From Candidatus Methylomirabilota bacterium (GTDB taxonomy: Bacteria > Methylomirabilota > Methylomirabilia > Methylomirabilales > 2-02-FULL-66-22), in assembly GCA_026387775.1 (NCBI GenBank), contig JAPLLC010000010.1, positions 1 to 32,607 of the forward strand: a stretch of DNA of 32,607 nucleotides, given 5' to 3'. Every line of letters starts with the position of its first letter. Position 1 is the stretch's first letter. Below are positions 6,018 to 26,812 of this stretch, one piece after another. A model generated the notes under the pieces. That model was not told the origin of the DNA and ran no database searches. It saw only the letters and a list, made by a program, of their open reading frames with translations. The translations under genes and the position numbers were made by a program.

Positions 6018-7418
6018 ATGAACAGAACAGAACTGCACGATGTGATCACCGACCTGCGAAGCCTTGGGCTCTCGACCGGTCCGGATCCCCGCCTGCCGAA
6101 AGGCGCGCGGCCGTCCGCCGATATGCTGGATCGTTGGGCCCGCGCGGCCGCCCTGGCCGAGCCGGATGCGCGCCAGGCGGCGATCTGGGCCATCCGCGCG
6201 GCCGCCCATGCCACGGGTCTGGTGCCGGCCTCCATCCAGGGGCTGTACGTCGCCCGGGGGCAGGGGAAGTGGCCCGGCCGCACCGTGCCCGCCATGAATC
6301 TGCGCGGCTGGACCTACCAGACCAGCCGCGCGGCTTTCCGCGCGGCGCGGAAGATGGGGGCCGGCCTCCTCATCTTCGAGCAGGCGCTGGCGGAAGCGGT
6401 CTATGCAGCCCAGCCTCCCGTCGAGTTCACGGCGGGTGTGTTGGCCGCGGGGATGCGGGAGGGGCACACGGGCCCGATCTTTCTCCAGGCGGATCACGAT
6501 CAAATCAACGCGAAGAATTACGCCGCGGATCCGGGCAAGGAGTTCCAGCGGCTGAGCGACGTGATCCGTGAGCAAGTTGCGGCTAGCTTCTTCAACATCG
6601 ACATCGACGCCTCGACGGTGGTGGATCTCGCACCGCCGACCCTGGTCGAGCAGCAGCGGCTGAACGCCGAACTCACGGCGAAGTTCACCCGGCTGGTTCG
6701 GTCCCTGCAACCGGCGGACGTCACCATCTCGGTCGGGGCCGAGATCGGCGAGGTGGGGGCGCACAACACCACGCCGGACGAACTCCGTGCCTTTATGGCC
6801 ACGTATCCCAAGGCACTGGCCGACGCTGGTGGCGGGGCAGGGATCACCAAGGTCAGCGTGAATTCGGGGACCTACCATGGCGGGAAGGTCCTGCCGGACG
6901 GGAGCCTCGCCAAGGTGCCGGTGGCCTTCGACACGCTCCGCGACATCTCGCGGGTCGCCCGCGAGGAGTTCGGCCTGGCCGGTGCGGTGCAGCACGGCGC
7001 CTCCACGCTTCCCATGGATTTCTTCGGCAAGTTCCCCGAGAGCGGGACGGTGGAGATTCACTTGGCCTTGGGCTTCAACAATCTGATCTTTGATCATCCG
7101 CGCTTGCCGCAGGCGATCAAGGACGAGATCCGGACCTACTGCTTCACCCATCATGCCAATGAGCGGAAGCCCGATCAGACCGAGGCCCAGTTCATCTACA
7201 CCACGCGGAAGAAGGCGTGGGCCGGCATGAAGGAGCGATTCTGGAACCTGCCCGCCGACATCCAGGAGGCCCTCATGGTCTCGCTGGAGGAGATGTTTCG
7301 CGACATGTTCGTGCGCATGAACGTGGGCCAGACTGCCGAACTGGTCGCCCAGCACGCCCATGCGCCGGTGGTGCCGGTGCCGGTCCCTCCGGCCCTGGCG
7401 AAGGCGCTCGCCGCGTGA
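6018..7418 (+). CDS. Class II (fructose/tagatose-bisphosphate-like) aldolase family protein
   Basis: GLYVARGQGKWPGRTVPAMNLRGWTYQTSRAAFRAARKMGAGLLIFEQ, GPIFLQADHDQIN, AVQHGASTLP, TVEIHLALGFNNLIFDHP; clustered with PfkB kinase and sugar ABC genes. Confidence 0.65.
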   Translation: MNRTELHDVITDLRSLGLSTGPDPRLPKGARPSADMLDRWARAAALAEPDARQAAIWAIRAAAHATGLVPASIQGLYVARGQGKWPGRTVPAMNLRGWTYQTSRAAFRAARKMGAGLLIFEQALAEAVYAAQPPVEFTAGVLAAGMREGHTGPIFLQADHDQINAKNYAADPGKEFQRLSDVIREQVAASFFNIDIDASTVVDLAPPTLVEQQRLNAELTAKFTRLVRSLQPADVTISVGAEIGEVGAHNTTPDELRAFMATYPKALADAGGGAGITKVSVNSGTYHGGKVLPDGSLAKVPVAFDTLRDISRVAREEFGLAGAVQHGASTLPMDFFGKFPESGTVEIHLALGFNNLIFDHPRLPQAIKDEIRTYCFTHHANERKPDQTEAQFIYTTRKKAWAGMKERFWNLPADIQEALMVSLEEMFRDMFVRMNVGQTAELVAQHAHAPVVPVPVPPALAKALAA

Positions 7419-11632: not shown

Positions 11633-11639
11633 GCCAACC

Positions 11640-12821
11640 TCACGCGGCGGGCCCTCCGTCGAACCGCCCCTGATCGGCCGCGTGCAGCAACCGCCGGCAA
11701 ATCTCGTCGCAGACCAAGAAGCCCTTGGATGTCAGCCGCAGCCTGTCCTCCCGAAAGACCGCCATCCCGTCCTCGATCATCTTGTCCAGGAGGCATCCCC
11801 ACCGCATCTTTAGATCGAAGGCGAAGTCCGCGCTCAAGCCCGTCACGTCGAGTCCGCCGCTCCGGAGACCCAGGAGGATTCGTTCGGCGAGCATCTCTCG
11901 CGGTCCCACCTGCTCCTCACCGCCTACCGGCAAGACGCCCCGTCCCAGCCGTTCAAGATAGGTAGCGAGGTCCGAGATGTTCCACCAGCGCCGGCCGCTT
12001 CGCCCGTCACCGGCCTTCCGAAACGAATGGGCCGACGGGCCGAAGCCGAGATAATCTTCGTGGGACCAGTAGGCGCAGTTGTGTCGGCAGCGGAATCCGG
12101 GGAGGGCGTAGTTCGAGACTTCGTAGTGGTCGTATCCGTGACCGCGCAGCACCTCCATCGTCCGCTCGTACATGTGCGCTTCGAGATCCGTGGGATTCGC
12201 GCGAACCTCGCCGGTCTGTATCTGACCGGCCAGCGGGGTGTGCTCCTCGACGATGAGGCTGTAGGCGGCGACGTGTTGCGGCGCGAGGCCCGCGGCGGTC
12301 GCCAGGTTGTCTTCCCACTGGGCCAGGGTTTGCCCCGGGATCGAGTAGATGAGGTCGAGGCCGAGGTTGTCGAATCCGGCGCTGCGGGCCAGATCGATGA
12401 CGCGGAGCGCCTCCGTCCGGTCGTGGACTCGGCCGAGTGTCCTGAGTTCGGAATCGTGGAACGACTGGATGCCGACACTCAGCCGGTTGACGCCGAGGGC
12501 GCGATAGGCGCGAAGCTTCTCTTCGGTTACCGTGCCGGGGTTCGCCTCCAGCGTCACTTCCGCGTTCGGCGCGATCCTGAAAGCGGCGTGAAGGCGGGAC
12601 AGGATCGACTCGAGCTGTCGGGGAGTGAGAAGCGACGGGGTGCCCCCCCCAAAGAAGAGGGTCTCGAACGTTACGTTTTCGGCGCCTGCTTGGCGGAGCG
12701 AGATCTCCCGCGTCAGCGCTGCGAAGAAGTCCTCGATCAACTCAGTGTTCTCCACCGAGTAGAAGTCGCAATAGAGGCACTTTCGTTCACAGAAGGGGAT
12801 ATGGACGTAAAGAGAGCTCAG
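11640..12821 (-). CDS. hemW: HemW-like radical SAM protein (coproporphyrinogen III oxidase-like), probable CTG start
   Basis: In-frame extension upstream of the GTG at 12755 gives (L)SSLYVHIPFCERKCLYCDFYSVENTE with the CX3CX2C motif; TAA at 12842-12840 leaves CTG 12821-12819 as the only near-cognate start before the motif. FFGGGTPSLL, NRLSVGIQSF, CAYWSHEDYLGFGPSAHS. Confidence 0.85.
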   Translation of the reverse strand: MSSLYVHIPFCERKCLYCDFYSVENTELIEDFFAALTREISLRQAGAENVTFETLFFGGGTPSLLTPRQLESILSRLHAAFRIAPNAEVTLEANPGTVTEEKLRAYRALGVNRLSVGIQSFHDSELRTLGRVHDRTEALRVIDLARSAGFDNLGLDLIYSIPGQTLAQWEDNLATAAGLAPQHVAAYSLIVEEHTPLAGQIQTGEVRANPTDLEAHMYERTMEVLRGHGYDHYEVSNYALPGFRCRHNCAYWSHEDYLGFGPSAHSFRKAGDGRSGRRWWNISDLATYLERLGRGVLPVGGEEQVGPREMLAERILLGLRSGGLDVTGLSADFAFDLKMRWGCLLDKMIEDGMAVFREDRLRLTSKGFLVCDEICRRLLHAADQGRFDGGPAA

Positions 12822-12892
12822 CGCAAGATCCCCTTTCCATTATACGGGGAAGGGTGAACAAGGAGATGGAGATCGGCGTTGGACCCTGTGGC

Positions 12893-13594
12893 CTACTCCC
12901 ACGGTCGTTCAAGCATCTCCCGGGTCTCCTCGACGGCGATCTTCCAGATGGCCTCCATGTCGGCGTCCGGGCGCTGGTGGTAGCCGCCGTAGTTGCCGTC
13001 ACCGAGCAAGGCGCGCAGCGCGACCGGGTCGCACAGCCGCACGCGGTCAAGGTCAACCATGGGCTTCCGCTCGGCCGGCAAAGTGACCCCGGTCAGACGC
13101 GTCCAGGGGAAGTTCTCCATCCACGAGCCGTGCGAGGCGACCGGATCAATCTCCACCACTTGCCCCCAGGTGCGCGGTGCGTTCCACCAGTTGTGGAGAC
13201 GCACCTTCACCCCCGGATGGTCGGCCATCCACTCACCGGCGAGTCCCTGCACCGGCGAGTTGCCGCCGTGGCCGTTCACGAGCAGGATGCGCCGGAAGCC
13301 GCTGTCCGCTAGGGAATCAAGAATGTCGCGGACCACCAAGAGGTAGGTTTCGACGCGCAGCGAGATCGAGCCGGGGTAGGCCCGGAAGTACGGGCTGATT
13401 CCATAGGGGAGCGCGGGAAACACCGGCACCCCGAGCGGCTTCGCGGCCTCGACCGCCACCCGCTCTGCCAGAATCGTATCCGTGCTTAGGCTGAGGTTCG
13501 CATGTTGCTCGGTGCTGCCGAGCGGGAGCACGGCACGATCCTCCCGCCGAAGGGCTGCTTCCACCTGCATCCAGTTCTGTTCGTAGATCCTCAT
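12893..13594 (-). CDS. Creatininase family amidohydrolase
   Basis: ATG 13594 preceded by GGGAGG; VLPLGSTEQHANLSLSTDTILAERVA, ILLVNGHGGNSPVQ. Confidence 0.9.
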   Translation of the reverse strand: MRIYEQNWMQVEAALRREDRAVLPLGSTEQHANLSLSTDTILAERVAVEAAKPLGVPVFPALPYGISPYFRAYPGSISLRVETYLLVVRDILDSLADSGFRRILLVNGHGGNSPVQGLAGEWMADHPGVKVRLHNWWNAPRTWGQVVEIDPVASHGSWMENFPWTRLTGVTLPAERKPMVDLDRVRLCDPVALRALLGDGNYGGYHQRPDADMEAIWKIAVEETREMLERPWE

Positions 13595-13704
13595 CCGACC
13601 TCCCGCTTGTCCCAGGGCCTTGAAGCAACCCGCGTGATGATGACGACCACGAAGCCGTGGTACAACGATCCGAACACGAATAGGATGTTCCGTGGGAGGT
13701 GCAA

Positions 13705-13736
13705 TGTCAAGGGAGGAGAAGACTTTGCCCTTGACA
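13705..13736. promoter_or_regulatory. Perfect 9-bp inverted repeat TGTCAAGGG-N14-CCCTTGACA in divergent intergenic region
   Basis: Arms 13705-13713 and 13728-13736; between divergent starts at 13594 (-) and 13875 (+). Confidence 0.6.
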
Positions 13737-13874
13737 GCATCCCGGCCGTACGGGCATCCTGCGCCGGTTCTGGTGAGGGGAGCCTCCTGGGACTTATTGC
13801 GGCCGGAGAGCCGATCATTCAACCGAGAAGAGACCGCCCCGGCAGTCTCGGATAACAACCCAAAGGAGTGCGAG

Positions 13875-14642
13875 ATGGGAAACGGCAGCAAGCCTGTGCG
13901 ACTGTCCTACGAAGCGCTGCTCGAGCTCAAGCGCTGGAATACGCCGAGCGTGTACAACGGCTGGGAGGCCTTCACCAAGCAGGATCGCACGAAGGGGCAC
14001 TTCAATCTGGAGGAGACGCGCGATTTCATGCCGCAGATGGGCCCCATGGTCGGCTATGCGGTGACCGTGGTCATCGAGCCGAGCAACCCGAGCTATCCGA
14101 AGGCGAACCCGAACGCCTGGAGTGAGTACCGCCGCTATATCGCCGCCGCCCCCGGTCCCAAGATTGTCATTGTTCAGGATCTGGACAAGCCGAACTTCGT
14201 CGGGGCGTATTGGGGCGAGGTCAACAGCAACATCCATCGAGCCCTCGGCTGCGTGGGGAGCATCATCGACGGGGTGATCCGCGATGTGGACGAGATGTGC
14301 AATGCGGGCTTCAAGGCCATAGCGAAACGCACGAGCGTCGGGCACGCATATTCCACCCCCGTCAGATGGAATTGCGAGGTGGATGTGTTCGGGTGTCCAG
14401 TGAAGCCCGGGCAGCTCATTCACGCGGACAAGCACGGGTTCCTGGTCATCCCAGAGGAGGATGAGGCGTATCTTCCCGATGCGTGCCGGTTCATGGACGC
14501 CAACGAGTGCCGCACGCTGATTCCAGCGGCGAGAGCTTCCGCGGGAAAGACGATGGAGGAGGTCCTGCGGGAGATGGACGAAGCGGGAAGGCGGTTCGGC
14601 GAAGCGGTCAAGGAGAAGTTCGGCACCAAGGGGGAAGGGTAG
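13875..14642 (+). CDS. RraA-like family protein
   Basis: ALGCVGSIIDGVIRDVDEMCNAGFKAIAKRTS...VFGCPVKPGQLIHADKHGFLVIP; RBS aaaggag. Confidence 0.8.
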   Translation: MGNGSKPVRLSYEALLELKRWNTPSVYNGWEAFTKQDRTKGHFNLEETRDFMPQMGPMVGYAVTVVIEPSNPSYPKANPNAWSEYRRYIAAAPGPKIVIVQDLDKPNFVGAYWGEVNSNIHRALGCVGSIIDGVIRDVDEMCNAGFKAIAKRTSVGHAYSTPVRWNCEVDVFGCPVKPGQLIHADKHGFLVIPEEDEAYLPDACRFMDANECRTLIPAARASAGKTMEEVLREMDEAGRRFGEAVKEKFGTKGEG

Positions 14643-14775
14643 AGTCGTAACGGCGCGAGGACATGTCGGTAGCGAATATGTATCTCAAGACTCAACACTA
14701 CTAGCCGGGGCCGGGGGCCTGGTCTGTCCCCTCTGTTCTTTTTCTGCCTCAGCACCCGGAAGATTCCGGTTGACT

Positions 14776-14797
14776 CGCTACTCCCCTGGTAGTAGCG
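14776..14797. repeat. Inverted repeat CGCTACT-N8-AGTAGCG upstream of the reductase gene
   Basis: Perfect 7-bp arms 14776-14782 and 14791-14797, just after TTGACT at 14770. Confidence 0.45.
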
Positions 14798-14921
14798 TCC
14801 CCCTCAACGTCGGGTTCCCTGTGGGTTATTGTGCCCCGTTCGCCGGTTTCTGTGGTCCCGCGCTACGCCGGCCAGGTCGCTCCCGGTCGCGCCGGTTTCC
14901 AACTTCCTATCCGGTTCCACT

Positions 14922-15938
14922 ATGCATATCACCGTCTGGGGTGCCGGAGCCATCGGAGGGATCACCGGCGGGGCCTTGGCCCGCACCGGGCATGACGTCC
15001 TGCTGGTGGACGCACATGAAGAGCACGTCCGCGCGATTCAGCGGGACGGCTTGCACGTGCTGGATCCGCGGGGCGACTGGCAGGTGCAGGTCCGGGCGGC
15101 GACGCCGGCAGAGGTGCGAGGGCCAATCGGCCTCCTCCTCCTGGCCGTCAAGGCCCAGGCCACGGCGACCGCGCTGGCGCAGATCGTGCCGCTTCTCAGC
15201 CAGGACTCCATGCTGGTGTCTGTCCAGAACGGCCTCAACGAGGAGCTGATCGCGGAGCGAATCGGGGCTGCCCGCACCGTCGGGTGTCTCGTGAACTGGG
15301 CCGCCGATTGGGTGGCGCCCGGCCGGATCCAGTACGGTGGGCCGGGGAGCCTGACGCTGGGCGAGCTGGACGGGCGGATCACACCCCGCGTCCGCGACCT
15401 GGCGAAGTTGCTCTCGGCCGTCCAGCCCACGCGGGTGACGGAGAACATCTGGGGGCTGCTCTGGGCCAAAACCTGCTACGCGGCGCTCCTCTTCGCCACG
15501 GCGCTGACCGACGAGACGATCTATGACGTGGTGGAGCGGCCCCTGCCGACCCAGCGGATGCTCGTCCTGCTGGTCGCCGAGGCCATGGCAGTGGCCGAGG
15601 CGTGTGGGGTCCGGGTGGAGGCCTTCGACGAGTACGATCCGGCGCTCTATCGCCGGGGAGCGGCGGGGGACCTGACCGCCATCGAGGCGGCCATGGCGGA
15701 GATCTCCCGCTTTTACCGGAAGCACACCAAGGTCAAGACCGGCATCTGGCGCGACCTGGCGGTGCGCAAGCGCAAGACCGAGGTGGATTCGCAGATCGGG
15801 GTGGTGGTCGCCAAAGGCCGCCGCCTCGGCGTGGCCACTCCGCTGCTCGATCGCGTGGTGGTCATGATCCATGACCTGGAGGACGGGCGACGCGTCATGG
15901 GGTGGGCGAATCTGGATGAATTGGTGGCCCTGGCCTGA
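14922..15938 (+). CDS. Ketopantoate reductase (ApbA/PanE)-like oxidoreductase
   Basis: MHITVWGAGAIGGITGGALARTGHDVLLVD Rossmann motif; VSVQNGLNEELIAERIG; NIWGLLWAKTCYAALL. Confidence 0.88.
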   Translation: MHITVWGAGAIGGITGGALARTGHDVLLVDAHEEHVRAIQRDGLHVLDPRGDWQVQVRAATPAEVRGPIGLLLLAVKAQATATALAQIVPLLSQDSMLVSVQNGLNEELIAERIGAARTVGCLVNWAADWVAPGRIQYGGPGSLTLGELDGRITPRVRDLAKLLSAVQPTRVTENIWGLLWAKTCYAALLFATALTDETIYDVVERPLPTQRMLVLLVAEAMAVAEACGVRVEAFDEYDPALYRRGAAGDLTAIEAAMAEISRFYRKHTKVKTGIWRDLAVRKRKTEVDSQIGVVVAKGRRLGVATPLLDRVVVMIHDLEDGRRVMGWANLDELVALA

Positions 15939-15991
15939 GCGGGCCGGGCCGTTTCGTCGGGGAAAGTCCCGATGTGGGGAAGGAGAGGCAG

Positions 15992-17587
15992 ATGCGAAAG
16001 GGAACGCGAGCCACACGGGTACTGGTCGTGATGGCGCTCTTCATCGCGGCCGTCGCCTGGGTGGCGGACGGCGCGGCGGGCGAGAAGCGGGGCGGCACGT
16101 TGACCATCGTCCGGCCCACCGATCCGGTGTCGCTGGATTCCAACCTGGAGACGACCGGGCCCGGGGCCTGGGTCTACTACAACATCACCGAGCCTCTCCT
16201 GGTACTGGACGAGGCGGGCAAGCTCACGCCGCGGCTGGCCACGAGCTGGCAGGTAATCTCTCCCACCAAGATCCGCTTCAAGCTGCGCCCGAACGTGAAA
16301 TTCCACGACGGCACGCCGTTCAACGCGCAAGCGGTCAAGTTCACCATCGACCGGGCCTTCAACGAGAAGCCGGGCGCGCGCTGGGCCAGCCTGGCCGGGC
16401 CGTTCACCGGCGCCGAGGTCGTGGACGATCTGACCGTGGACATCACGACGAGGGAGCCCTACGGGCCCTCCCTGCGCTCGCTGGCCATGGCCTATGTCGG
16501 GATCGTGTCGCCCGCGGCCGTAAAGAAACACGGCGAGAACTACGGGCGGAATCCCGTCGGGACGGGGCCCTTCAAGTTCGTGGAGTGGAAGACCAACACC
16601 AGCATCACCATCGAGAAGAACGCCGACTACTGGGGCGACAAGGCCCTGGTGGACCGAGTGATCTTCAAGGTCGTGCCCGAGGAGGGGGCGCGGATGATCT
16701 CGCTGCGCACGGGCGAGGCGGACATGGTTCTCATCCCGTCGCCGGCCGAGCTGCCGAGCCTCAAGCGCGAAGGCAAGTTCAACGTCTATGAGGTGGTCGG
16801 AGGGCGCATCATCTTCGTGGGCTTCAATCTGAACAAGCCCATCGTGAATGATCCCCTGGTGCGCCAGGCCATGTTCCACGCCGTGAACATCAATACCATC
16901 CTCGACAACATCTACGAGGGGGCGGCGGTCCGGCCCAAGAGCTATCTGGCGCCCAGCGTGTTCGGCTTCAAGGACATGCAGTTCGACAAGCTGTATCCGT
17001 ACGACAAGGCCAAAGCCAAGGCCCTCTTCGCCAAAGCGGGCTGGACGCCCGGGCCCGACGGGATCCTCCAGAAGGGCGGGCAGAAGATGACCCTGTCCTG
17101 GCTGGCCTCCCGTGGCCGCTACCTAAAGGACGCCGAGATGGCCGAGGCGGTGCAGGCCCAGCTCAAGGAGGTCGGTGTGGATGCCCGGCTGCAGTTCCTG
17201 GAGTGGGGGGCGCTCTTCAGCCAGATGCGCTCGGCGAACCTGGACCACCACATGTACACCTTCGGCTGGATCACCACCAACAACGACGCCGACTACACGA
17301 TGTACTCCTCGTTCTTGTGCAAGAGCGAGCCGCCGGCGGGCTGGAACCGCGCCCGGTATTGTGACAGCAAGGCGGACGCGCTGATCGAGAAGGCGCGGAG
17401 CAGCGTGAATCAGTCGGCGCGCGAGAAGATGTACGGCGAGGTCCAGACCATCATGGCCAAGGAGCCCATCTGGATCCCGGTGGCCAACACCAAGGAGGTC
17501 GTGGTCACGCAGCGCTACGTCCGCGGCTTCTCCGTGCATCCGGTCGAGTACAACCTGGACCTGACCAAGGTCTGGATGGATAAGTAA
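15992..17587 (+). CDS. ABC transporter substrate-binding protein, family 5 (peptide/nickel type)
   Basis: KRGGTLTIVRPTDPVSLDSNLETTGPGAWVYYNITEPLL; FKLRPNVKFHDGTPFNAQAVKFTIDRAF. Confidence 0.93.
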   Translation: MRKGTRATRVLVVMALFIAAVAWVADGAAGEKRGGTLTIVRPTDPVSLDSNLETTGPGAWVYYNITEPLLVLDEAGKLTPRLATSWQVISPTKIRFKLRPNVKFHDGTPFNAQAVKFTIDRAFNEKPGARWASLAGPFTGAEVVDDLTVDITTREPYGPSLRSLAMAYVGIVSPAAVKKHGENYGRNPVGTGPFKFVEWKTNTSITIEKNADYWGDKALVDRVIFKVVPEEGARMISLRTGEADMVLIPSPAELPSLKREGKFNVYEVVGGRIIFVGFNLNKPIVNDPLVRQAMFHAVNINTILDNIYEGAAVRPKSYLAPSVFGFKDMQFDKLYPYDKAKAKALFAKAGWTPGPDGILQKGGQKMTLSWLASRGRYLKDAEMAEAVQAQLKEVGVDARLQFLEWGALFSQMRSANLDHHMYTFGWITTNNDADYTMYSSFLCKSEPPAGWNRARYCDSKADALIEKARSSVNQSAREKMYGEVQTIMAKEPIWIPVANTKEVVVTQRYVRGFSVHPVEYNLDLTKVWMDK

Positions 17588-17613
17588 GCTTCTCGGGAAT
17601 CTCGTCTGACTCA

Positions 17614-17653
17614 GGTGCCCCCGGGCGGGTGGCTCGGGGGCACCGGGCTTTTT
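17614..17653 (+). terminator. Terminator/attenuator-like hairpin between binding-protein and permease genes
   Basis: GGTGCCCCCG (17614-17623) and CGGGGGCACC (17635-17644), perfect 10 bp, followed by GGGCTTTTT. Confidence 0.7.
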
Positions 17654-17655
17654 CG

Positions 17656-18576
17656 ATGCTCTTCTACGTGTTGCGCCGACTCCTGCAATCCGTCCCCGTG
17701 ATACTGGGCGTGATCTTTGCGGTCATGCTGACGATCGAGATGATCCCGGGCGACCCCGTTACCCTCATGCTGGGCGAGCACGCCACGCAGGAGTCGGTGG
17801 CGGCGGTTCGTGGGGCCCTCGGCCTGGACAAGCCGCTGCTCGTCCGCTATGTCCAGTACATCGGCAATCTGCTTCACGGCGATCTGGGCCGATCCATCCG
17901 CGAGCGGCGGCTGGTGAGCCAGGAGCTGGCCGACGTCTGGCCGGCCACGCTGGAGCTGACGACGGCGGCGCTCGTCTTCGCCGTCCTGGGCGGCGTGCTC
18001 GCCGGCGTCGTCTCGGCCGTGTGGCCGAACTCCTTCTTCGACGGTGTGATGCGGCTGGGCTCGCTCTTCGGTCTCTCCATGCCGGTCTTCTGGACCGGAC
18101 TCACGCTGATCATCCTCTTCAGCCTGTGGCTTCCCTGGCTGCCGGTGGGGGGTAGCGGCTCCTTGCGCCACCTCATCCTGCCCGCCGTGACGCTGGCCCT
18201 GCCGTCGCTGGCCATGGTCGCGCGCATGACCCGCTCCAGCGTGCTGGAGGTGCTGCGCGAGGACTACATCCGGACGGCGCGGGCCAAGGGGCTGCGCGAG
18301 CAGGTAGTCGTGCTGAAGCACGGGCTGCGCAACGCCTGTATCCCCATCGTCACCCTGCTGGGGCTGCAGGTGGGGCAGCTCCTGGGCGGGGCGGTCCTCA
18401 CGGAGACCGTCTTTGCCTGGCCCGGCATGGGGCGGCTGATCGTGCGGGCCATCTTCGCCCGCGACTATATCCTTCTCCAGGGGGCGATCCTGGTGTTCGC
18501 GCTGACGTTTGTCGTCGTCAACCTGCTCGTGGATATCTCATACGCGATGTTCGACCCGCGGGTGAGCCGGCGCTAG
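17656..18576 (+). CDS. Peptide-type ABC transporter permease (DppB-like)
   Basis: MLFYVLRRLLQSVPVILGVIFAVMLTIEMIPGDPV; EDYIRTARAKGLREQVVVLKHGLRNACIPIVTLLG. Confidence 0.94.
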   Translation: MLFYVLRRLLQSVPVILGVIFAVMLTIEMIPGDPVTLMLGEHATQESVAAVRGALGLDKPLLVRYVQYIGNLLHGDLGRSIRERRLVSQELADVWPATLELTTAALVFAVLGGVLAGVVSAVWPNSFFDGVMRLGSLFGLSMPVFWTGLTLIILFSLWLPWLPVGGSGSLRHLILPAVTLALPSLAMVARMTRSSVLEVLREDYIRTARAKGLREQVVVLKHGLRNACIPIVTLLGLQVGQLLGGAVLTETVFAWPGMGRLIVRAIFARDYILLQGAILVFALTFVVVNLLVDISYAMFDPRVSRR

Positions 18577-18590
18577 CCGCTTCGCGGCGC

Positions 18591-18648
18591 GCAGGGGAGC
18601 AGAGGAAAAGGGAACCCCCCTGCACCCTATCCCCTCTTGCTCCTCTGC
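18591..18648 (+). other. Intercistronic structured region: two crossing complementary pairs
   Basis: GCAGGGG 18591-18597 with CCCCTGC 18617-18623; GCAGAGGA 18599-18606 with TCCTCTGC 18641-18648. Confidence 0.4.
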
Positions 18649-18693
18649 AGCAAACGATAGGTCACGACAACCTCGACTACGGATGCGGAGTCT

Positions 18694-19554
18694 TTGGTGC
18701 AAGCAGGTCAGGCTTCGACAGTCAGGGCGGATGCGTGGAAGCGGTTCTGGCGAAATCGCCTGGCCGTGGTGGGTCTGGTGATCGTGGCCGGCCTGCTGGT
18801 CTGCGCGATTTTGGCGCCGCTGCTCGCGCCGCATGATCCGGGGCTCCAGGAGCTATCGGCCAAGCGGACGCCGCCGGGGGCGCGCTTCTGGCTGGGGGCG
18901 GACGAGTTCGGCCGCGACATCCTGAGTCGCATCATCTACGGGACGCGGGTGGCCTTGCTGGTGGGCACGGTCTCCGTGGGGATCGCGCTGAGCCTCGGCC
19001 TGTTCTTCGGGATCCTCTCGGGGTACGTGGGCGGGTTCGTCGACAGCCTGGTCAGCCGCGCCATGGAGATCCTGCTGGCGTTTCCCTATCTGCTGTTGGC
19101 CATTGCCGTGGTGAGCGCCCTCGGCGCGGGGGTCCTGAACACGACGCTGGCCGTGGGCATCTGGGCCATGCCCGCCTTCACCCGGATCGTGCGGGCCTCG
19201 GTCCTGTCGCTCCGGGAGATGGACTTCATCCAGGCCGCCCGCGCCATGGGGGCCCCCACCCGGGCCATCCTGCTCCGGCACCTGCTGCCGAACTTCCTGC
19301 CCACGCTCATCGTCTACTCGACCCTTTACATGGCGAACGCCGTCCTGGTCGAGGCGGCGCTCTCTTTCCTCGGCCTCGGCGTGCAGCCGCCCACGGCCTC
19401 CTGGGGGCTCATGGTAGCCACGGGCCGCGACTTCCTCCTGATGGCGCCCCACATCACCACCATCCCCGGCCTGGCCATCATGCTGGCAGTCCTGGGCTTC
19501 AACCTGCTCGGCGACGGCCTGCGCGACGCGCTCGATCCCCGGCTCCGCACCTGA
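18694..19554 (+). CDS. Peptide-type ABC transporter permease (DppC-like), TTG or GTG start
   Basis: GADEFGRDILSRIIYGTRVALLVG; MDFIQAARAMGAPTRAILLRHLLPN; EAALSFLGLGVQPPTASWGLM. Confidence 0.93.
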   Translation: MVQAGQASTVRADAWKRFWRNRLAVVGLVIVAGLLVCAILAPLLAPHDPGLQELSAKRTPPGARFWLGADEFGRDILSRIIYGTRVALLVGTVSVGIALSLGLFFGILSGYVGGFVDSLVSRAMEILLAFPYLLLAIAVVSALGAGVLNTTLAVGIWAMPAFTRIVRASVLSLREMDFIQAARAMGAPTRAILLRHLLPNFLPTLIVYSTLYMANAVLVEAALSFLGLGVQPPTASWGLMVATGRDFLLMAPHITTIPGLAIMLAVLGFNLLGDGLRDALDPRLRT

Positions 19555-19662
19555 ACCACCAAGATGCTGAGGACGCCAATCGGGTCGGGCTCCAGACATT
19601 CAGGCACTTAGAAGCGCAGAGGTACCAGGCACCTATTCCCCCTGACGAGACGGAGGCGAGCG

Positions 19663-20628
19663 ATGTCCACGGGACCCATCACGGTCGGCGAGATAACGGC
19701 GGCGCCAGGGCAGAGGGCGCGCGGCTTCCTCAGTGTAGAGGTGGGGAAGGGGCTCAGCGTGCGGATGCCGGTGGTGATCATCAACGGGAAGGCCGACGGG
19801 CCGGTGTTCGCGGTCACGGCGGGTGTCCACGGGGCGGAGTACCCGGGGATCGAGGCGGCCATCCGGCTTTCCCGGACGCTGGATCCGGCCGAGGTGCGGG
19901 GAGCCCTGCTCATCGTTCCGGTGGTGAGCGTGCCCGCGTACCAGCGGCGCGCCATCTACGTGAACCCGCTCGACGGGATCAACTTCAATCGCGTCTGTCC
20001 GGGCAATCCGATGGGCACGGTCACCGAGATGATGGCCGACCTGCTCTTCAAGAACGTGATTGCGCAGGCGGACTACTACATGGATCTGCACGGCGGGGAC
20101 ATGATCGAGGCGCTGGTCCCGTTCACGCTCTACTACAAGACCGGGAATGAGGCGGTCGACGCCAAGTCGCGGGCTTTGGCCGAGGCCTACGGCATCCCCA
20201 TTATCCTGGGCTCGACGGTCCTGCGCGGGGGGACGTACGGGGCGGCGGCGGCGATGGGGAAGCCCTCGGTGCTGACCGAGGCCGGCGGACAGGGGATCCT
20301 GGACGAGCCGTCCGCCCAGACCCACATGCGGGGCGTGCTGAACGTCCTCAGGCGGTTCGGCGGACTGCCCGGCCAGCCCGAGGCTGTCCCCGTGGCGGAG
20401 TACTACAGCAGGTTCGTCTGGCTGACGGCCGAGCAGGACTGCGTCTACTACCCGAAGGTCACGGTGGGGCAGCAGGTCCGGGAGGGGGAACTGATCGCCG
20501 AGTTCACGGATCTCTTCGGGGAGAAGATCGGCGAGTTGAAGTCGCCCGCCACCGGGCCGGTCCTCTTCCTCGTCACCTCGCCCGCCATCAACAAGAACGA
20601 CCCCCTGATGGCGATAGGCTCCCGGTAG
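19663..20628 (+). CDS. Succinylglutamate desuccinylase/aspartoacylase family protein (M14-type deacylase)
   Basis: AVTAGVHGAEYPGIEAAIRLSRTL (HxxE), NFNRVCPGNPMGTVTEMMA, YYMDLHGGDMIEAL. Confidence 0.9.
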   Translation: MSTGPITVGEITAAPGQRARGFLSVEVGKGLSVRMPVVIINGKADGPVFAVTAGVHGAEYPGIEAAIRLSRTLDPAEVRGALLIVPVVSVPAYQRRAIYVNPLDGINFNRVCPGNPMGTVTEMMADLLFKNVIAQADYYMDLHGGDMIEALVPFTLYYKTGNEAVDAKSRALAEAYGIPIILGSTVLRGGTYGAAAAMGKPSVLTEAGGQGILDEPSAQTHMRGVLNVLRRFGGLPGQPEAVPVAEYYSRFVWLTAEQDCVYYPKVTVGQQVREGELIAEFTDLFGEKIGELKSPATGPVLFLVTSPAINKNDPLMAIGSR

Positions 20629-20651
20629 GACTGCAGGGGAGCAGGGGGAGA

Positions 20652-20679
20652 TTGCGAATTTCGAATTGCGAATTTCGAA
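20652..20679. repeat. Two perfect tandem copies of TTGCGAATTTCGAA
   Basis: 20652-20665 and 20666-20679, AT-rich island between convergent genes. Confidence 0.9.
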
Positions 20680-20717
20680 ATTGGCTCGACCCCTCCGCAC
20701 CTCCGTAGTAGTTCCGT

Positions 20718-22487
20718 CTACTTCTTCCTGGACAGCGTGGGTAGAACGGCCAGGGTCGCCTCCACCATGGAGACCGCCTGGTGCAGGTGGAAGCAGACCT
20801 TGTTCTGCGCACGGACGAGCCCGACGCGTAGCTGCCGGGCCTCGTCGCTCTTCGGGGCGAGGGCGCCCAGCCGCCGCATGGGCTCCAGAGTCGGGAAGGG
20901 CGGGACCGCCAGCGTCGGGTCGTGCTCGAAGCGATCCGCCCGGCAGTAACCGATCGGGATCAACTCCCGGCCCAGGGTCATCAGGCAGTCGTTGACCAGG
21001 TCGGTGGCCGCCGCGGAGAGGGGCTCGCGGCGGAGGCGCCGGGCCAGGGCGCCCAGTCGCTTGTCGAGGCGGCCCAGGAGGTCGAGTGCCGGCCCGACAT
21101 CGAAGCGCCCCTTGGCTTCCTTCAGATAGCGGCCGAGGATGGCTTCGGCCTCCGATACGACCGCCCGATAGTCCAGGGGCAGGATCTCGTCCTCCAGCAG
21201 CCGCTGCGCGACCAGTGTGTAGACCTGCGCGTCCCGGACCAGGAAATCCGGGTCCAGCTTGTCCAGCGTATCCTCGGGGGTGTGCCAGAACCAGCCTAGC
21301 CCCCCGGTCCGGGGCTGGCCCCCCATGAGCTGGGCCCAGCCCTGCGCCGAGATCGAGGTGTCTGGCGGCTGCTCTGACAGCGTCATGAAGGCGGAGGGGA
21401 TGCCGTGGCCCCAGAAGGACTGGTCGCCGGCCCGCTTGGGGCGTACCCCGGACAGCCGCTGGCCGGTGATCTTCTCCAGGATGTCGGAGGCGAGGGGCTG
21501 CGCCTCGGCCATGACGAAGGCCTCGGTGAGGACGGTGGCGCCCTTGGCGCCCAGACAGTCCACGTTGAGGTTCAGGACGCAGTGCTCGTGCAGCTCCTGC
21601 CAGAAGGTGTCCGCGTACCAGGCCGATCCCCCGTAGCGGGCATGGGAATGGCCGGACCAGAAGGCCAGCCGCAGGTCCCGCCGCATCCGCTTCCGCCGTC
21701 CGGCCATGATCCGGCCGATCTCGAGTTGCGTGGCGTTGCCCGTGCCGTTGTCCATGGCCCCGTAATACCAGGAGTCCACGTGGCCGCTGACCAGGAGGAA
21801 GTCCCCGCTGCTCTTGGGGGCGCGCAGGTGGGCGATGAGCAGGGGCAGGCTCCGCCACTTTGTGTCCACCGCGGCGCGGATGCGGACGCGCACCGGTCCG
21901 CGGCCGAGGGCCTCGCGCAGTGCCGCGCCGCCCGCGGCGTCCACGGAGACGATGGGGGTCCTGGGGAGGAGCTTGGCCGTCTTCGGAGTGGGGGAGCCCC
22001 AGACGATGGAGGCGATCATCTCGTGGGGGAGCTTGCCGCAGATGTTGATCTGAGCCGCCGCCCCCGCCCCCTCGATGCGGAACATCTTGGCGGGCATCGC
22101 CAGACCGTCGGAGAGCGCCGCCCGCCCCTGCACGGGAAGTGTCGCCAGCGTCGCGGGATCGCCCCGGCCGACGTCGACCAGCTCCAGGACCACCCCCTCG
22201 GGTGGCGTGGAGGCGGCCATGGCATGGGTGATGCACGGAATGCCGAAGGTCTGGCTGTTGAGGATCTCCAGCAACGCTGCGCCCGGCCAGCTCGTCCAGC
22301 AGTCGTGGCGGTGCTCCTCGATCTCAAAGCCCCAGCCCTTGAGCGTCCGGCCGATGTAGCGGAAGGCCTCCCGCTCCTCCGGCGAGCCGGACAGACGCAC
22401 ATTTCGCGTGATGTGGAGTGTGTACTCCTCGATCGTCTCCGCCGTCACCTGCCGCGCCAGCGCCTGCTCGTCCCGTGAGAGTCTCAC
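20718..22487 (-). CDS. M28 family peptidase-like protein with atypical active site, GTG start
   Basis: VSGHVDSWYYGAMDNGTGNATQLEIGRIM, LNLNVDCLG, FWHTPEDTLDKLD; AAGGAG RBS before GTG at 22487. Confidence 0.82.
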   Translation of the reverse strand: MRLSRDEQALARQVTAETIEEYTLHITRNVRLSGSPEEREAFRYIGRTLKGWGFEIEEHRHDCWTSWPGAALLEILNSQTFGIPCITHAMAASTPPEGVVLELVDVGRGDPATLATLPVQGRAALSDGLAMPAKMFRIEGAGAAAQINICGKLPHEMIASIVWGSPTPKTAKLLPRTPIVSVDAAGGAALREALGRGPVRVRIRAAVDTKWRSLPLLIAHLRAPKSSGDFLLVSGHVDSWYYGAMDNGTGNATQLEIGRIMAGRRKRMRRDLRLAFWSGHSHARYGGSAWYADTFWQELHEHCVLNLNVDCLGAKGATVLTEAFVMAEAQPLASDILEKITGQRLSGVRPKRAGDQSFWGHGIPSAFMTLSEQPPDTSISAQGWAQLMGGQPRTGGLGWFWHTPEDTLDKLDPDFLVRDAQVYTLVAQRLLEDEILPLDYRAVVSEAEAILGRYLKEAKGRFDVGPALDLLGRLDKRLGALARRLRREPLSAAATDLVNDCLMTLGRELIPIGYCRADRFEHDPTLAVPPFPTLEPMRRLGALAPKSDEARQLRVGLVRAQNKVCFHLHQAVSMVEATLAVLPTLSRKK

Positions 22488-22802
22488 CGCATCGCTCCTT
22501 GTCGGCTGCCTGCCCGACGCCTCGATGGCCCCTGATGCCTGACGGATCATCCTCCATCCACCGGGCGGTTTTCAACGCCATTCTTGCGATGGAACCGCAA
22601 GCGCGGACAAACCGCCAAGAGGGCTCAGCCGTTCTGTCGGGCGGGAGATGCAGCCGAATCCGGCCACCGTCCGGCGGGACAGCCGCTTGTTGATGAGCGG
22701 CTCGATGGAGCGCAGATCCTGCGTCGGCACGGCAGAGGAAGCGAGAGGCAATCCTCGCGCCGCATGAGCGGAAAAGGTTGACGGAGGGGATATGGTGGCT
22801 CG

Positions 22803-23924
22803 TTAACGCGCCAGCAGCGCCAATATTGCCCCGCCGGCCATCACGGAAGCGATCTGGCCCGCCGTGTTCGATCCCATGGCGTGCATGAGGAGGAAGTTGT
22901 TTGGGTTGGCCTCCAGCCCGACGCGGTTCACGACCCGGGCCGACATGGGGAACGCGGAGATCCCGGCGGCGCCGATCAGCGGATTCACCTTGCCGCGGGT
23001 GACGATGCAGAGCAGCTTGCCGAACCCCAGGCCCGCCACGGTGTCCAGGGCAAAAGCGACGAGACCCATGCCGAGGATGAACAGGGTCTGGGCGGTCAGG
23101 AACTTGCCGGCTGACATGGTGGAGCCGATGGTGAGCCCCAGGAAGATGGTTACCAGATTGACCAGTTCGTTCTGGGCGGCGCTGGAGAGTCGCTCGACGA
23201 CCCCGGCCTCGCGCAAGAGGTTTCCGAACATCAGCATTCCGATCAGGGGAGTCGACATTGGGGCGATCAATCCGCAGACCAGCGTGGTCACGATAGGGAA
23301 GAGGACGCGCGTGGTCTTCGAGACCGGCTTCTCGGTGTAGGGCATGACGATGGCCCGCTCGGCGGGGGTGGTGAGCGCCCGCATGATGGGCGGTTGAATG
23401 ATGGGCACCAGCGACATGTACGAGTATGCTGCGACCGCAATGGGGGCCAGCAGGTCGGGGGCAAGGATGGAAGCCACGTAGATGGACGTCGGGCCGTCGG
23501 CCGAGCCGATGATGCCGATGGAGGCGGCCTGGTTGATGTCGAAGCCGAGAAGGGTCGCCATCAGCAGTGTACCGAAAATACCGAACTGGGCGGCTGCACC
23601 GAGCAGCACGGTCCTCGGCCGCTCCAGGAGCGGGCCGAAGTCGGTCATGGCGCCGATGCCAATGAAGATCAACAAGGGGAACAGCTCGTTCTTGATGCCC
23701 ATATCGTAGAGGATGGTGAACAACCCTCCCGCGTCGGTCATCCCGGTGACGGGGATGTTCGCCATGATGCAGCCGATCCCGATCGGGAGCAGCAGCACCG
23801 GCTCGTACTCCTTGACGATGGCCAGGAAGATCAGGATCCCACCGACCGCGATCATGATCAGGTGACCCCACCCGAAGTTGACGAAGCCCTCCACCAGTTT
23901 GGCGGTGACCTTCGGATCAATCAT
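22803..23924 (-). CDS. Sodium ion-translocating decarboxylase subunit beta
   Basis: GIGAMTDFGPLLERPRTVLLGAAAQFGIFGTLL, ASIGIIGSADGPTSIYVAS, NLVTIFLGLTIGSTMSAGKFL, GKVNPLIGAAGISAFPMSARV. Confidence 0.95.
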   Translation of the reverse strand: MIDPKVTAKLVEGFVNFGWGHLIMIAVGGILIFLAIVKEYEPVLLLPIGIGCIMANIPVTGMTDAGGLFTILYDMGIKNELFPLLIFIGIGAMTDFGPLLERPRTVLLGAAAQFGIFGTLLMATLLGFDINQAASIGIIGSADGPTSIYVASILAPDLLAPIAVAAYSYMSLVPIIQPPIMRALTTPAERAIVMPYTEKPVSKTTRVLFPIVTTLVCGLIAPMSTPLIGMLMFGNLLREAGVVERLSSAAQNELVNLVTIFLGLTIGSTMSAGKFLTAQTLFILGMGLVAFALDTVAGLGFGKLLCIVTRGKVNPLIGAAGISAFPMSARVVNRVGLEANPNNFLLMHAMGSNTAGQIASVMAGGAILALLAR

Positions 23925-23998: not shown

Positions 23999-25318
23999 TC
24001 AATCGAGCACGAGGAGCGGCGCGCCGAAGGCCACGCTCTGGCTCGGTGCGACGAGGACCTCAGCGACGATCCCGTCGCGTTGCGCCCGGATGCTGTTTCC
24101 CATCTTCATGGCCTCGATCACGCACAGCTCGTCTCCCTTCCTCACGCGATCCCCCGCCTTCACCGCGACCGAGAGAATCTTGCCGGGGAGCGGGGCGGTG
24201 ACGCGCTCGCCCGCGCCGGGGCGACTGGGCGGCGCCGGGGCGGCCGCCGGCGTCGGACCGGACACAGGGACGGCCTGGCGCGCCACCTCCAGCTTTTCCA
24301 CGCGACCGTCGATCAGTACCGTGGCCGAGGTCCCGGCGATCTCCTTGACCTCGACCGTGTGCGGCTGGCCGTTCACCAGGATCCTGGTTCGCTCAGTCCT
24401 ATCCTGCTTCGCCTGGTACCTGGAGCCGTCGAGAAGGACAGCCGTGGCGCCGTCACCCGAGCCCTTCAGTTCGACGGTATGCTGCTTCCCCCCGTGAGTC
24501 AGCGAGAACAGGGCGGGGGCCGCCGGCGCCCGTCGCACGATCTCGACCTTTTGCGAGACCCCGTCGATGACGACCGTGGCCGAGGTCTCGGCCCTCTCCT
24601 TGACCTCGACCGTGTGCGACTGACCGTTCACGACGATCCGCTTGCCGTCCGTCTGGTCGCGCTGAACCTGATAGCGGGAGCCGTCCAGGTGGACGGCCGC
24701 CGCTCCGGCTGTTCCCGCCGTGACCTCGACCGTGTGCGAGGCGCCCGCAACGGTCAGTGTGAGGGCGAACGGCTCGACGCTGGGAGTCATAGACACAGCA
24801 GGCGGTGCTGCGGGCGCCGCCGCCGACCGGGCCGCCGCCGCGGCGACCGTGGAGGCCAGAAGGACCAGCGGGGCGCCGAAGGCCACGCTGTCGCCGGAGG
24901 CGACGCATACCTCCGCGACGACGCCGTCGCGGGGTGCCTTCACGCTGTTTCCCATCTTCATGGCCTCGATCACGCACAGTTCGTCCCCCTTCCGCACGCG
25001 ATCCCCCGTCTTCACCGCGACCGAGAGGATCTTGCCGGGGAGCGGGGCGGTAACCGCCTCTGCGGCCTGTGCCGCGGCGGGTGCCGCCGACCCCGACGCC
25101 TCAGCACCAGCCGGTGGGTGTGCCGGGGCCGCCTGAGCGGGCACGGGTGCCGCTGTCCCCACCGTCAGGCCCTGGGCCTCCAAGAGGTCCTTGCCGGTCG
25201 CCACGGCGAAGATCTTGCCGAGGATCATGATGGCAACCATGAGCACGAGCAAGGCCAGAAAGACGATGCCTAATCCATAGATCGTGACGTTCAGCGCCAG
25301 CATGAAGTCCACGCCCAT
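23999..25318 (-). CDS. OadG-like gamma subunit fused to two biotinyl (BCCP) domains
   Basis: ATG 25318 with GGAGGG RBS; TM MLALNVTIYGLGIVFLALLVLMVAIMILGKIFAVATG; two copies of VTAPLPGKILSVAVK.GDRVRKGDELCVIEAMKMGNS. Confidence 0.92.
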   Translation of the reverse strand: MGVDFMLALNVTIYGLGIVFLALLVLMVAIMILGKIFAVATGKDLLEAQGLTVGTAAPVPAQAAPAHPPAGAEASGSAAPAAAQAAEAVTAPLPGKILSVAVKTGDRVRKGDELCVIEAMKMGNSVKAPRDGVVAEVCVASGDSVAFGAPLVLLASTVAAAAARSAAAPAAPPAVSMTPSVEPFALTLTVAGASHTVEVTAGTAGAAAVHLDGSRYQVQRDQTDGKRIVVNGQSHTVEVKERAETSATVVIDGVSQKVEIVRRAPAAPALFSLTHGGKQHTVELKGSGDGATAVLLDGSRYQAKQDRTERTRILVNGQPHTVEVKEIAGTSATVLIDGRVEKLEVARQAVPVSGPTPAAAPAPPSRPGAGERVTAPLPGKILSVAVKAGDRVRKGDELCVIEAMKMGNSIRAQRDGIVAEVLVAPSQSVAFGAPLLVLD

Positions 25319-25423
25319 ATCCCTCCATGACGCGCAACCCGATTGCGACTGGGAACCTTCCCTGCCGCGGACCCACGCCACAGGCTGTCCGCGGTCCGAC
25401 TCACGATCGTAGTCCGGGTCCCG

Positions 25424-26812
25424 CTACTTCGCCCCGATGGCCACCGCGATGGCCGCCAGTTGGTCCCCGCTCAACTCGACGGCCTTCTTCCCGCGGTTGG
25501 CCAGAAACTCCTTGGCCACCGGCGGGAAGAGCACATACGACAGGACATCCTCTTCGCTCTTCGCGAGCGCGGTTTGCGGCACGGTCAGGGCGGCCTTTCG
25601 CTCCTGGAGCGCGATGCGGACCTGTGTGAACATGCCGACCTTCAGCGCGCGGTCACCGTTCGCGACGCGGATGCGGCTGGTGACGGCGTTGGTGGCCTTC
25701 ACCTCTTTCGGCACCATCTTGTACCGCTCGCCCAGCAGGACGTTGAGCACGGCCTGGCTGCCACAGATCTGGCTGGATGGGGTGACCAGCGGCGGATAGC
25801 CCAGATCCGCCCGCACCCGTGGGATCTCCTTCAGCACCTCTGGGAGTTTGTCCTCCTGGCCCTGTTCGCGGAGCTGATTGACCAGGTTGGAGATCATCCC
25901 GCCCGGGACCTGGAACTGCAGGACGTTGGTATCCACCCCGTAGGTCTTCATTTCGAGATGGCTGTAGTTCTTTCGCACCTTGGCGAAGTGTTTCCCGATG
26001 TCGGACAGCTTGGCCAGATCCAGGCCCGTGGCCCGATCGGTGCCCGCCAACGCCGCCACGAGAGTCTCCGTGGGGGGCTGAGACGAGCCCAGGGACATGC
26101 TGGAGATGGCGCAATCCACCATGTCCACCCCCGCCTCGGCCGCCTTGAAGTAGGCCATGGACGCCATGCCGCTGGTGTAGTGAGAGTGGAGAGAGATGGG
26201 GACCTCGGTCACCGCCTTCAGCCGGGTGACCAGATCGAAGGCGTCGCCGGGGGAGATCAGCCCCCCCATGTCTTTGATGCACAGCGAGTCGGCGCCGATC
26301 TGGAGCAGTTGCTTGAACGTCTTGACGAAGCCCTCGTTGTTGTGCACCGGGCTCAGCGTATAGCAGACGGAGGCCTGGACGTGGCCACCGTACTTGCGCA
26401 CCATGCGCATGGCGGTTTCCATGTTGCGGATGTCGTTCATGGCGTCGAAGATCCGGAACACCTGCATCCCGTTCTCGACGGCCTTGGCTACGAACCGCTC
26501 CACCACGTCGTCCGCGTAGTGGCGGTAGCCGACGACGACCTGTCCTCGCAGGAGCATCTGCAGGCGCGTCTTGGGCATGCGCTTCCGCATGATCCGCAGC
26601 CGCTCCCAGGGGTCCTCGTTCAGGAAGCGCAGGCAGGAGTCGAAGGTGGCACCGCCCCAGACCTCCAGGGACCAGTAGCCGACGTCGTCCAGCATCTCCA
26701 TCGCCGGGATCATGTCCTCGGTCCGCATCCGTGTGGCCAGGAGCGATTGGTGGCTGTCGCGCAGGACGGTTTCGCAGATGCCAAGCGGTTTCTTCGTCTG
26801 AGCCTGGATCAC
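25424..26812 (-). CDS. Pyruvate/oxaloacetate carboxyltransferase (decarboxylase alpha / PycB type), no biotinyl domain, anomalous C-terminal segment
   Basis: GTG 26812 with GGAGGTGGG RBS; ETVLRDSHQSLLATRMRTEDMIPAMEMLDDVGYWSLEVWGGATFDSCLRFLNEDPWERLR; SEEDVLSYVLFPPVAKEFL. Confidence 0.93.
   Translation of the reverse strand: MIQAQTKKPLGICETVLRDSHQSLLATRMRTEDMIPAMEMLDDVGYWSLEVWGGATFDSCLRFLNEDPWERLRIMRKRMPKTRLQMLLRGQVVVGYRHYADDVVERFVAKAVENGMQVFRIFDAMNDIRNMETAMRMVRKYGGHVQASVCYTLSPVHNNEGFVKTFKQLLQIGADSLCIKDMGGLISPGDAFDLVTRLKAVTEVPISLHSHYTSGMASMAYFKAAEAGVDMVDCAISSMSLGSSQPPTETLVAALAGTDRATGLDLAKLSDIGKHFAKVRKNYSHLEMKTYGVDTNVLQFQVPGGMISNLVNQLREQGQEDKLPEVLKEIPRVRADLGYPPLVTPSSQICGSQAVLNVLLGERYKMVPKEVKATNAVTSRIRVANGDRALKVGMFTQVRIALQERKAALTVPQTALAKSEEDVLSYVLFPPVAKEFLANRGKKAVELSGDQLAAIAVAIGAK

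Follow-up and report, generated by a model that had tools for sequence, protein, structure and literature searches.

The oad cluster and its alpha subunit gene

The window, i.e. the whole stretch of 32,607 nucleotides that was analysed, carries an OadA-OadG-OadB cluster on its minus strand, with the biotinyl/gamma and beta subunit genes that mark an OadA/PycB gene. The alpha subunit gene (25427-26812, minus strand) has a GTG start and encodes an OadA/PycB-type carboxyltransferase of 462 amino acids, as judged from NCBIfam profile searches (PRK09282, E=1.7e-199; oadA TIGR01108, E=1.6e-189) and from its 84% identity to the protein of a same-genus relative. Pfam recognizes its TIM barrel (HMGL-like, E=1.3e-18), and columns R18-D19, K180, H209 and H211, which we take to be the catalytic and metal residues of the family, are invariant in an alignment that includes the window protein. 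The TIGR01108 score falls below the family cut-off (631 vs 756.5 bits), a shortfall that is partly expected because the model continues into a biotinyl tail absent from the alpha subunit protein. In translation, the gene shows no further decay, with neither a stop nor a frameshift.

The next gene downstream (23999-25381, minus strand) encodes a gamma-like subunit with two biotinyl domains, seen as two stretches of Pfam Biotin_lipoyl, and is syntenic in the same-genus relative. Both of its biotinyl domains hold the motif EAMKMGNS, with BT-like stretches between them and a hydrophobic stretch at the N-terminal side; the two-domain layout also occurs in the relative. The cluster includes the beta subunit of a Na+-translocating decarboxylase (OadB/GcdB; 22803-23924, minus strand; OAD_beta, E=1.7e-154; TIGR01109, E=8.4e-140). 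Gene order matches that of the relative on both flanks of the alpha subunit, and the remainder of the operon is therefore sound. Elsewhere in the window, about 11.2 kb (~11633-22803) lie between two blocks syntenic with the relative's contig, which has ~2.3 kb there; this interval contains oligopeptide/nickel-type ABC transporter genes and a ketopantoate-reductase-like gene.

A piece of oadA replaced by RND-adaptor sequence

Translation of 25424-26812 (minus strand) reads ...LNVLLGERYKMVPKEVK, then ATNAVTSRIRVANGDRALKVGMFTQVRIALQERKAALTVPQTALAK, then SEEDVLSYVLFPPVAKEFLANRGKK..., where the middle part is a 46-amino acid segment at residues 372-417 of 462 (25559-25696, minus strand), in frame and exactly where a sequence-only reading of this DNA had located it. 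The N-terminal part (residues 1-371; 25697-26812, minus strand) is normal and comprises the TIM barrel and the start of the PYC_OADA domain; over 25697-26803, its DNA is 87% identical to that of the relative by blastn, with the alignment stopping at the 5′ joint. The C-terminal tail (residues 418-461/462; 25427-25558, minus strand) also aligns normally with the relative (82% protein identity over residues 49-97 of the relative-derived query). The PYC_OADA domain itself is incomplete: the best stretch of PF02436 in the whole protein (297-373; profile 86 of 201) ends at the joint, and the columns of the segment are lost.

The closest relative, of the same genus and with the same gene order (public contig JAKPQH010000104.1), has the normal carboxyltransferase linker that had been anticipated for known family members, with a canonical segment of 53 amino acids, NIAKGMYGRTPAPIDPAFQKQILGDEAPITCRPADLLEPELEKAKAEIGALAK. 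The segment under study had been described as “inserted”, which is wrong: the native 53 amino acids are gone and 46 stand in their place, a replacement with a net change of -21 bp that keeps the frame. Alignments by blastn cover 23999-25571 and 25697-26803, and the gap between them is the minimal unambiguously foreign DNA (25572-25696, minus strand), of 125 bp vs 146 bp in the relative. At the 5′ joint, gap-free identity of 87% runs up to the joint itself, with the last ~37 bases identical to the relative, and no long shared word, such as would explain a de Bruijn-graph switch, is visible there. At the 3′ joint, similarity to the relative resumes at CGCGCTCGCGAAG|AGCGAAGAG. The 13 bp of CGCGCTCGCGAAG (25559-25571, minus strand) are nearly identical to the relative's CGCGCTGGCGAAA, so that the exact crossover cannot be placed. 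Third-position divergence from the relative is 0.52 in the 3′ tail and up to 0.45 in the 5′ part of oadA; as the highest oadB window also reaches 0.52, nothing is read into this value, and a different origin of the tail was rejected.

When the 46 amino acids are scanned alone against NCBIfam, they match the RND_mfp model TIGR01730 (E=3.3e-7, model positions 218-261), MacA (6.9e-5) and CzcB/NccB (1.3e-4), with no carboxylase model among the matches, while Pfam gives none for the segment alone. The PDB matches are solely MacA chains, all in the same register and all weak (E 0.2-0.5). A tblastn search of plasmids with the segment reached 112 records, and among the matches listed with annotation, most are RND periplasmic adaptors; tblastn identity to such adaptors goes up to 53.5%. 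The beta-barrel/VP motif of RND adaptors is present in the segment, and its 29.6 bits over 44 positions lie below the TIGR01730 cut-off of 94.9 that marks the full architecture. On these profile and database comparisons, the resemblance to RND adaptors is real and specific, and the earlier reading of the letters, which saw in this segment the end of such a protein's beta-barrel, is borne out by both TIGR01730 and tblastn. Carboxyltransferases with a similar segment at the same position were looked for as its best matches, and none matched.

That the segment could be native after all, a fast-diverged or frameshifted linker whose likeness to an RND adaptor is fortuitous, is scarcely credible. 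MAFFT can align ERKAALTVP with CRPADLLEP, but this R.A.L..P likeness is superficial, and it has to be set against an RND_mfp match (E=3.3e-7) in the correct register. Moreover, beyond the 13-bp joint the DNA of the foreign stretch is no more similar to the relative's segment than shuffled sequence is, and the stretch therefore is not a frameshifted native segment; this shuffle level is reached while the flanks are 87% identical, with ~37 perfect bases up to the 5′ joint.

Conservation of the lost segment and the search for a donor

As judged by alignment, the swap takes out a conserved part of the enzyme. Columns G377, G380 and R404 (relative's numbering), all lost here, are kept in 84-90 of 94 homologous matches, both glycines in 90 of them, and three columns of the segment are invariant in a 20-member alignment from which the window protein was left out. 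None of the 94 matches examined shows any sign of the adaptor segment, and among 95 genomes of the class this is the only one with the 46 amino acids at E<=1e-4. A pattern scan of public genomes, with the segment peptide KVGMFTQV as one of its patterns, gave at least 80 stretches; the loci looked at were carboxyltransferase genes, and the scan is not taken as evidence of absence. Within the genus, oadA is found at E<=1e-20 in two of seven genomes, this one and the relative with the canonical segment. These two also have the highest contamination estimates of the seven (6.18% and 10%, respectively).

The window protein and its relative were modelled by AlphaFold2 with essentially the same 20 homologues. 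The relative's segment has a pLDDT of about 88-93 and the foreign one of ~30, with residues 361-414 and the helix at residues 337-359 of the window protein below 50; these low values are a warning and not a proof, because a foreign piece without homologues in the alignment contributes to them. The whole model has 2nx9 as its best Foldseek match. If the swap is real, the protein would probably be impaired: the chemistry of the barrel could persist, and the C-terminal helical domain would be broken.

The bin consists of 312 contigs, with an estimated contamination of 6.18%. It has ten places with an RND adaptor match that by itself exceeds the family cut-off, plus some weaker ones, and none is close to the segment, whose next best matches in the bin are 39% identical (E 0.008-0.07). 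Neither an intact second oadA nor a reciprocal product was found in the bin, where the relative's segment has no match outside the unaltered tail. Searches of the class, of 386 relatives that extend into other phyla, of plasmids and of three small samples at phylum or class level yielded no close donor; the best match over these sampled genomes and plasmids is 53% identical over 43 amino acids. The search covered sampled lineages and plasmids, and a donor may exist in genomes beyond them. Absence from the closest relatives and lack of a donor in the bin, two marks of an assembly chimera, coincide here. In contig C24 of the same bin (6125-6798), the reading frame of an RND adaptor match shifts towards its end (6250-6798 vs 6125-6256), which may reflect a frameshift or indel error of this assembly.

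Origin of the replacement

The locus is a two-joint chimera, in which a 125-bp piece of RND periplasmic adaptor stands where 146 bp of oadA belong. We infer a technical cause, an assembly or library chimera, as the most likely reading, with a probability of about one half. A chimeric read, a gap fill or an assembly path in a metagenome-style bin would have made the swap, the 13-bp near-match at the 3′ joint may have helped the join, and the OadA of the actual organism would in that case be an ordinary one, conserved segment included. We favour this cause because the swap is unique to the contig, because neither donor nor native copy occurs in the bin and conserved residues are lost, and because the bin is fragmented and 6.18% contaminated and the segment is modelled at a pLDDT of ~30. 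However, a careless join would not usually produce two joints within ~125 bp that both keep the frame, with the donor read in its native frame as well; the 5′ joint lacks the long shared word of a de Bruijn-graph switch, and in codon usage the segment is unremarkable within the window (68th percentile). The preserved frame counts for less than it seems to, since the near-match GCGCTNGCGAAN that holds the 3′ joint is phased by codon and so fixes the frame on its side.

A real and recent illegitimate recombination, which would have put the adaptor piece into oadA and left an open frame, a damaged enzyme and a pseudogene in the making, is a serious second possibility. The two flanks clearly come from one vertically inherited gene whose operon is unchanged, codon usage is host-like, both joints keep the frame and the donor is read in its native one, and the near-match of 13 bp recalls microhomology-mediated events, albeit at one joint only; the loss of conserved residues and the poor structural model would fit the damage. 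On the other hand, searches of this genome, of its class and of further genomes and plasmids brought up no close donor, no second genome carries the event, and an oadA with no stop or frameshift shows none of the other decay of a pseudogene.

It is improbable that the enzyme works as a hybrid, with the RND beta-barrel piece in place of the native linker and perhaps an altered docking of the gamma-like biotinyl domains. The two in-frame joints, the native donor frame, the intact downstream tail and the retention of TIM-barrel columns invariant among relatives all agree with such a hybrid, but the lost residues are near-invariant in relatives, the structural model is poor for the segment and its surroundings (to which the missing homologues contribute), and no relative carries it. 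About as improbable is a genuine sub-domain exchange in an expressed, functional carboxyltransferase, with the native segment in the C-terminal helical domain of this cytoplasmic enzyme replaced by a piece of beta-barrel from a periplasmic adaptor. Recombination ranks next after the technical chimera, and a working hybrid is the least likely of these three; an error of assembly, or else a recombination that damaged the gene, is more likely than a new kind of protein. Were it real and functional, the protein would be a striking case of a new architecture that arose when one fold took over a sub-domain of an unrelated one. As an artefact, it would be instructive in another way: the frame is kept on either side and gene calling accepts the chimera, so that quality checks based on frame would miss it.

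Compared with known OadA/PycB proteins (PDB 2nx9, 5ks8; PRK09282, TIGR01108), the window protein is alike in residues 1-371 and 418-462 and in its operon with a biotinyl gamma-like subunit and OadB, and it differs in the foreign residues 372-417, where the conserved ..YVKGLYG.P...RPADLLEP.. segment is missing. With the RND periplasmic adaptors (TIGR01730; MacA, CzcB, AcrA), it shares the part of the beta-barrel that ends in the VP..A motif, about 44-46 of 322 model positions, and it differs from them in having no barrel-sandwich, hairpin or membrane-proximal domain. The third comparison is with local chimeras in metagenome-derived assemblies. Here both joints are in frame, unlike in those cases, and the technical cause is one that we infer; the likeness lies in the shortness of the foreign patch, its absence from the closest relative and the lack of a donor in the bin.
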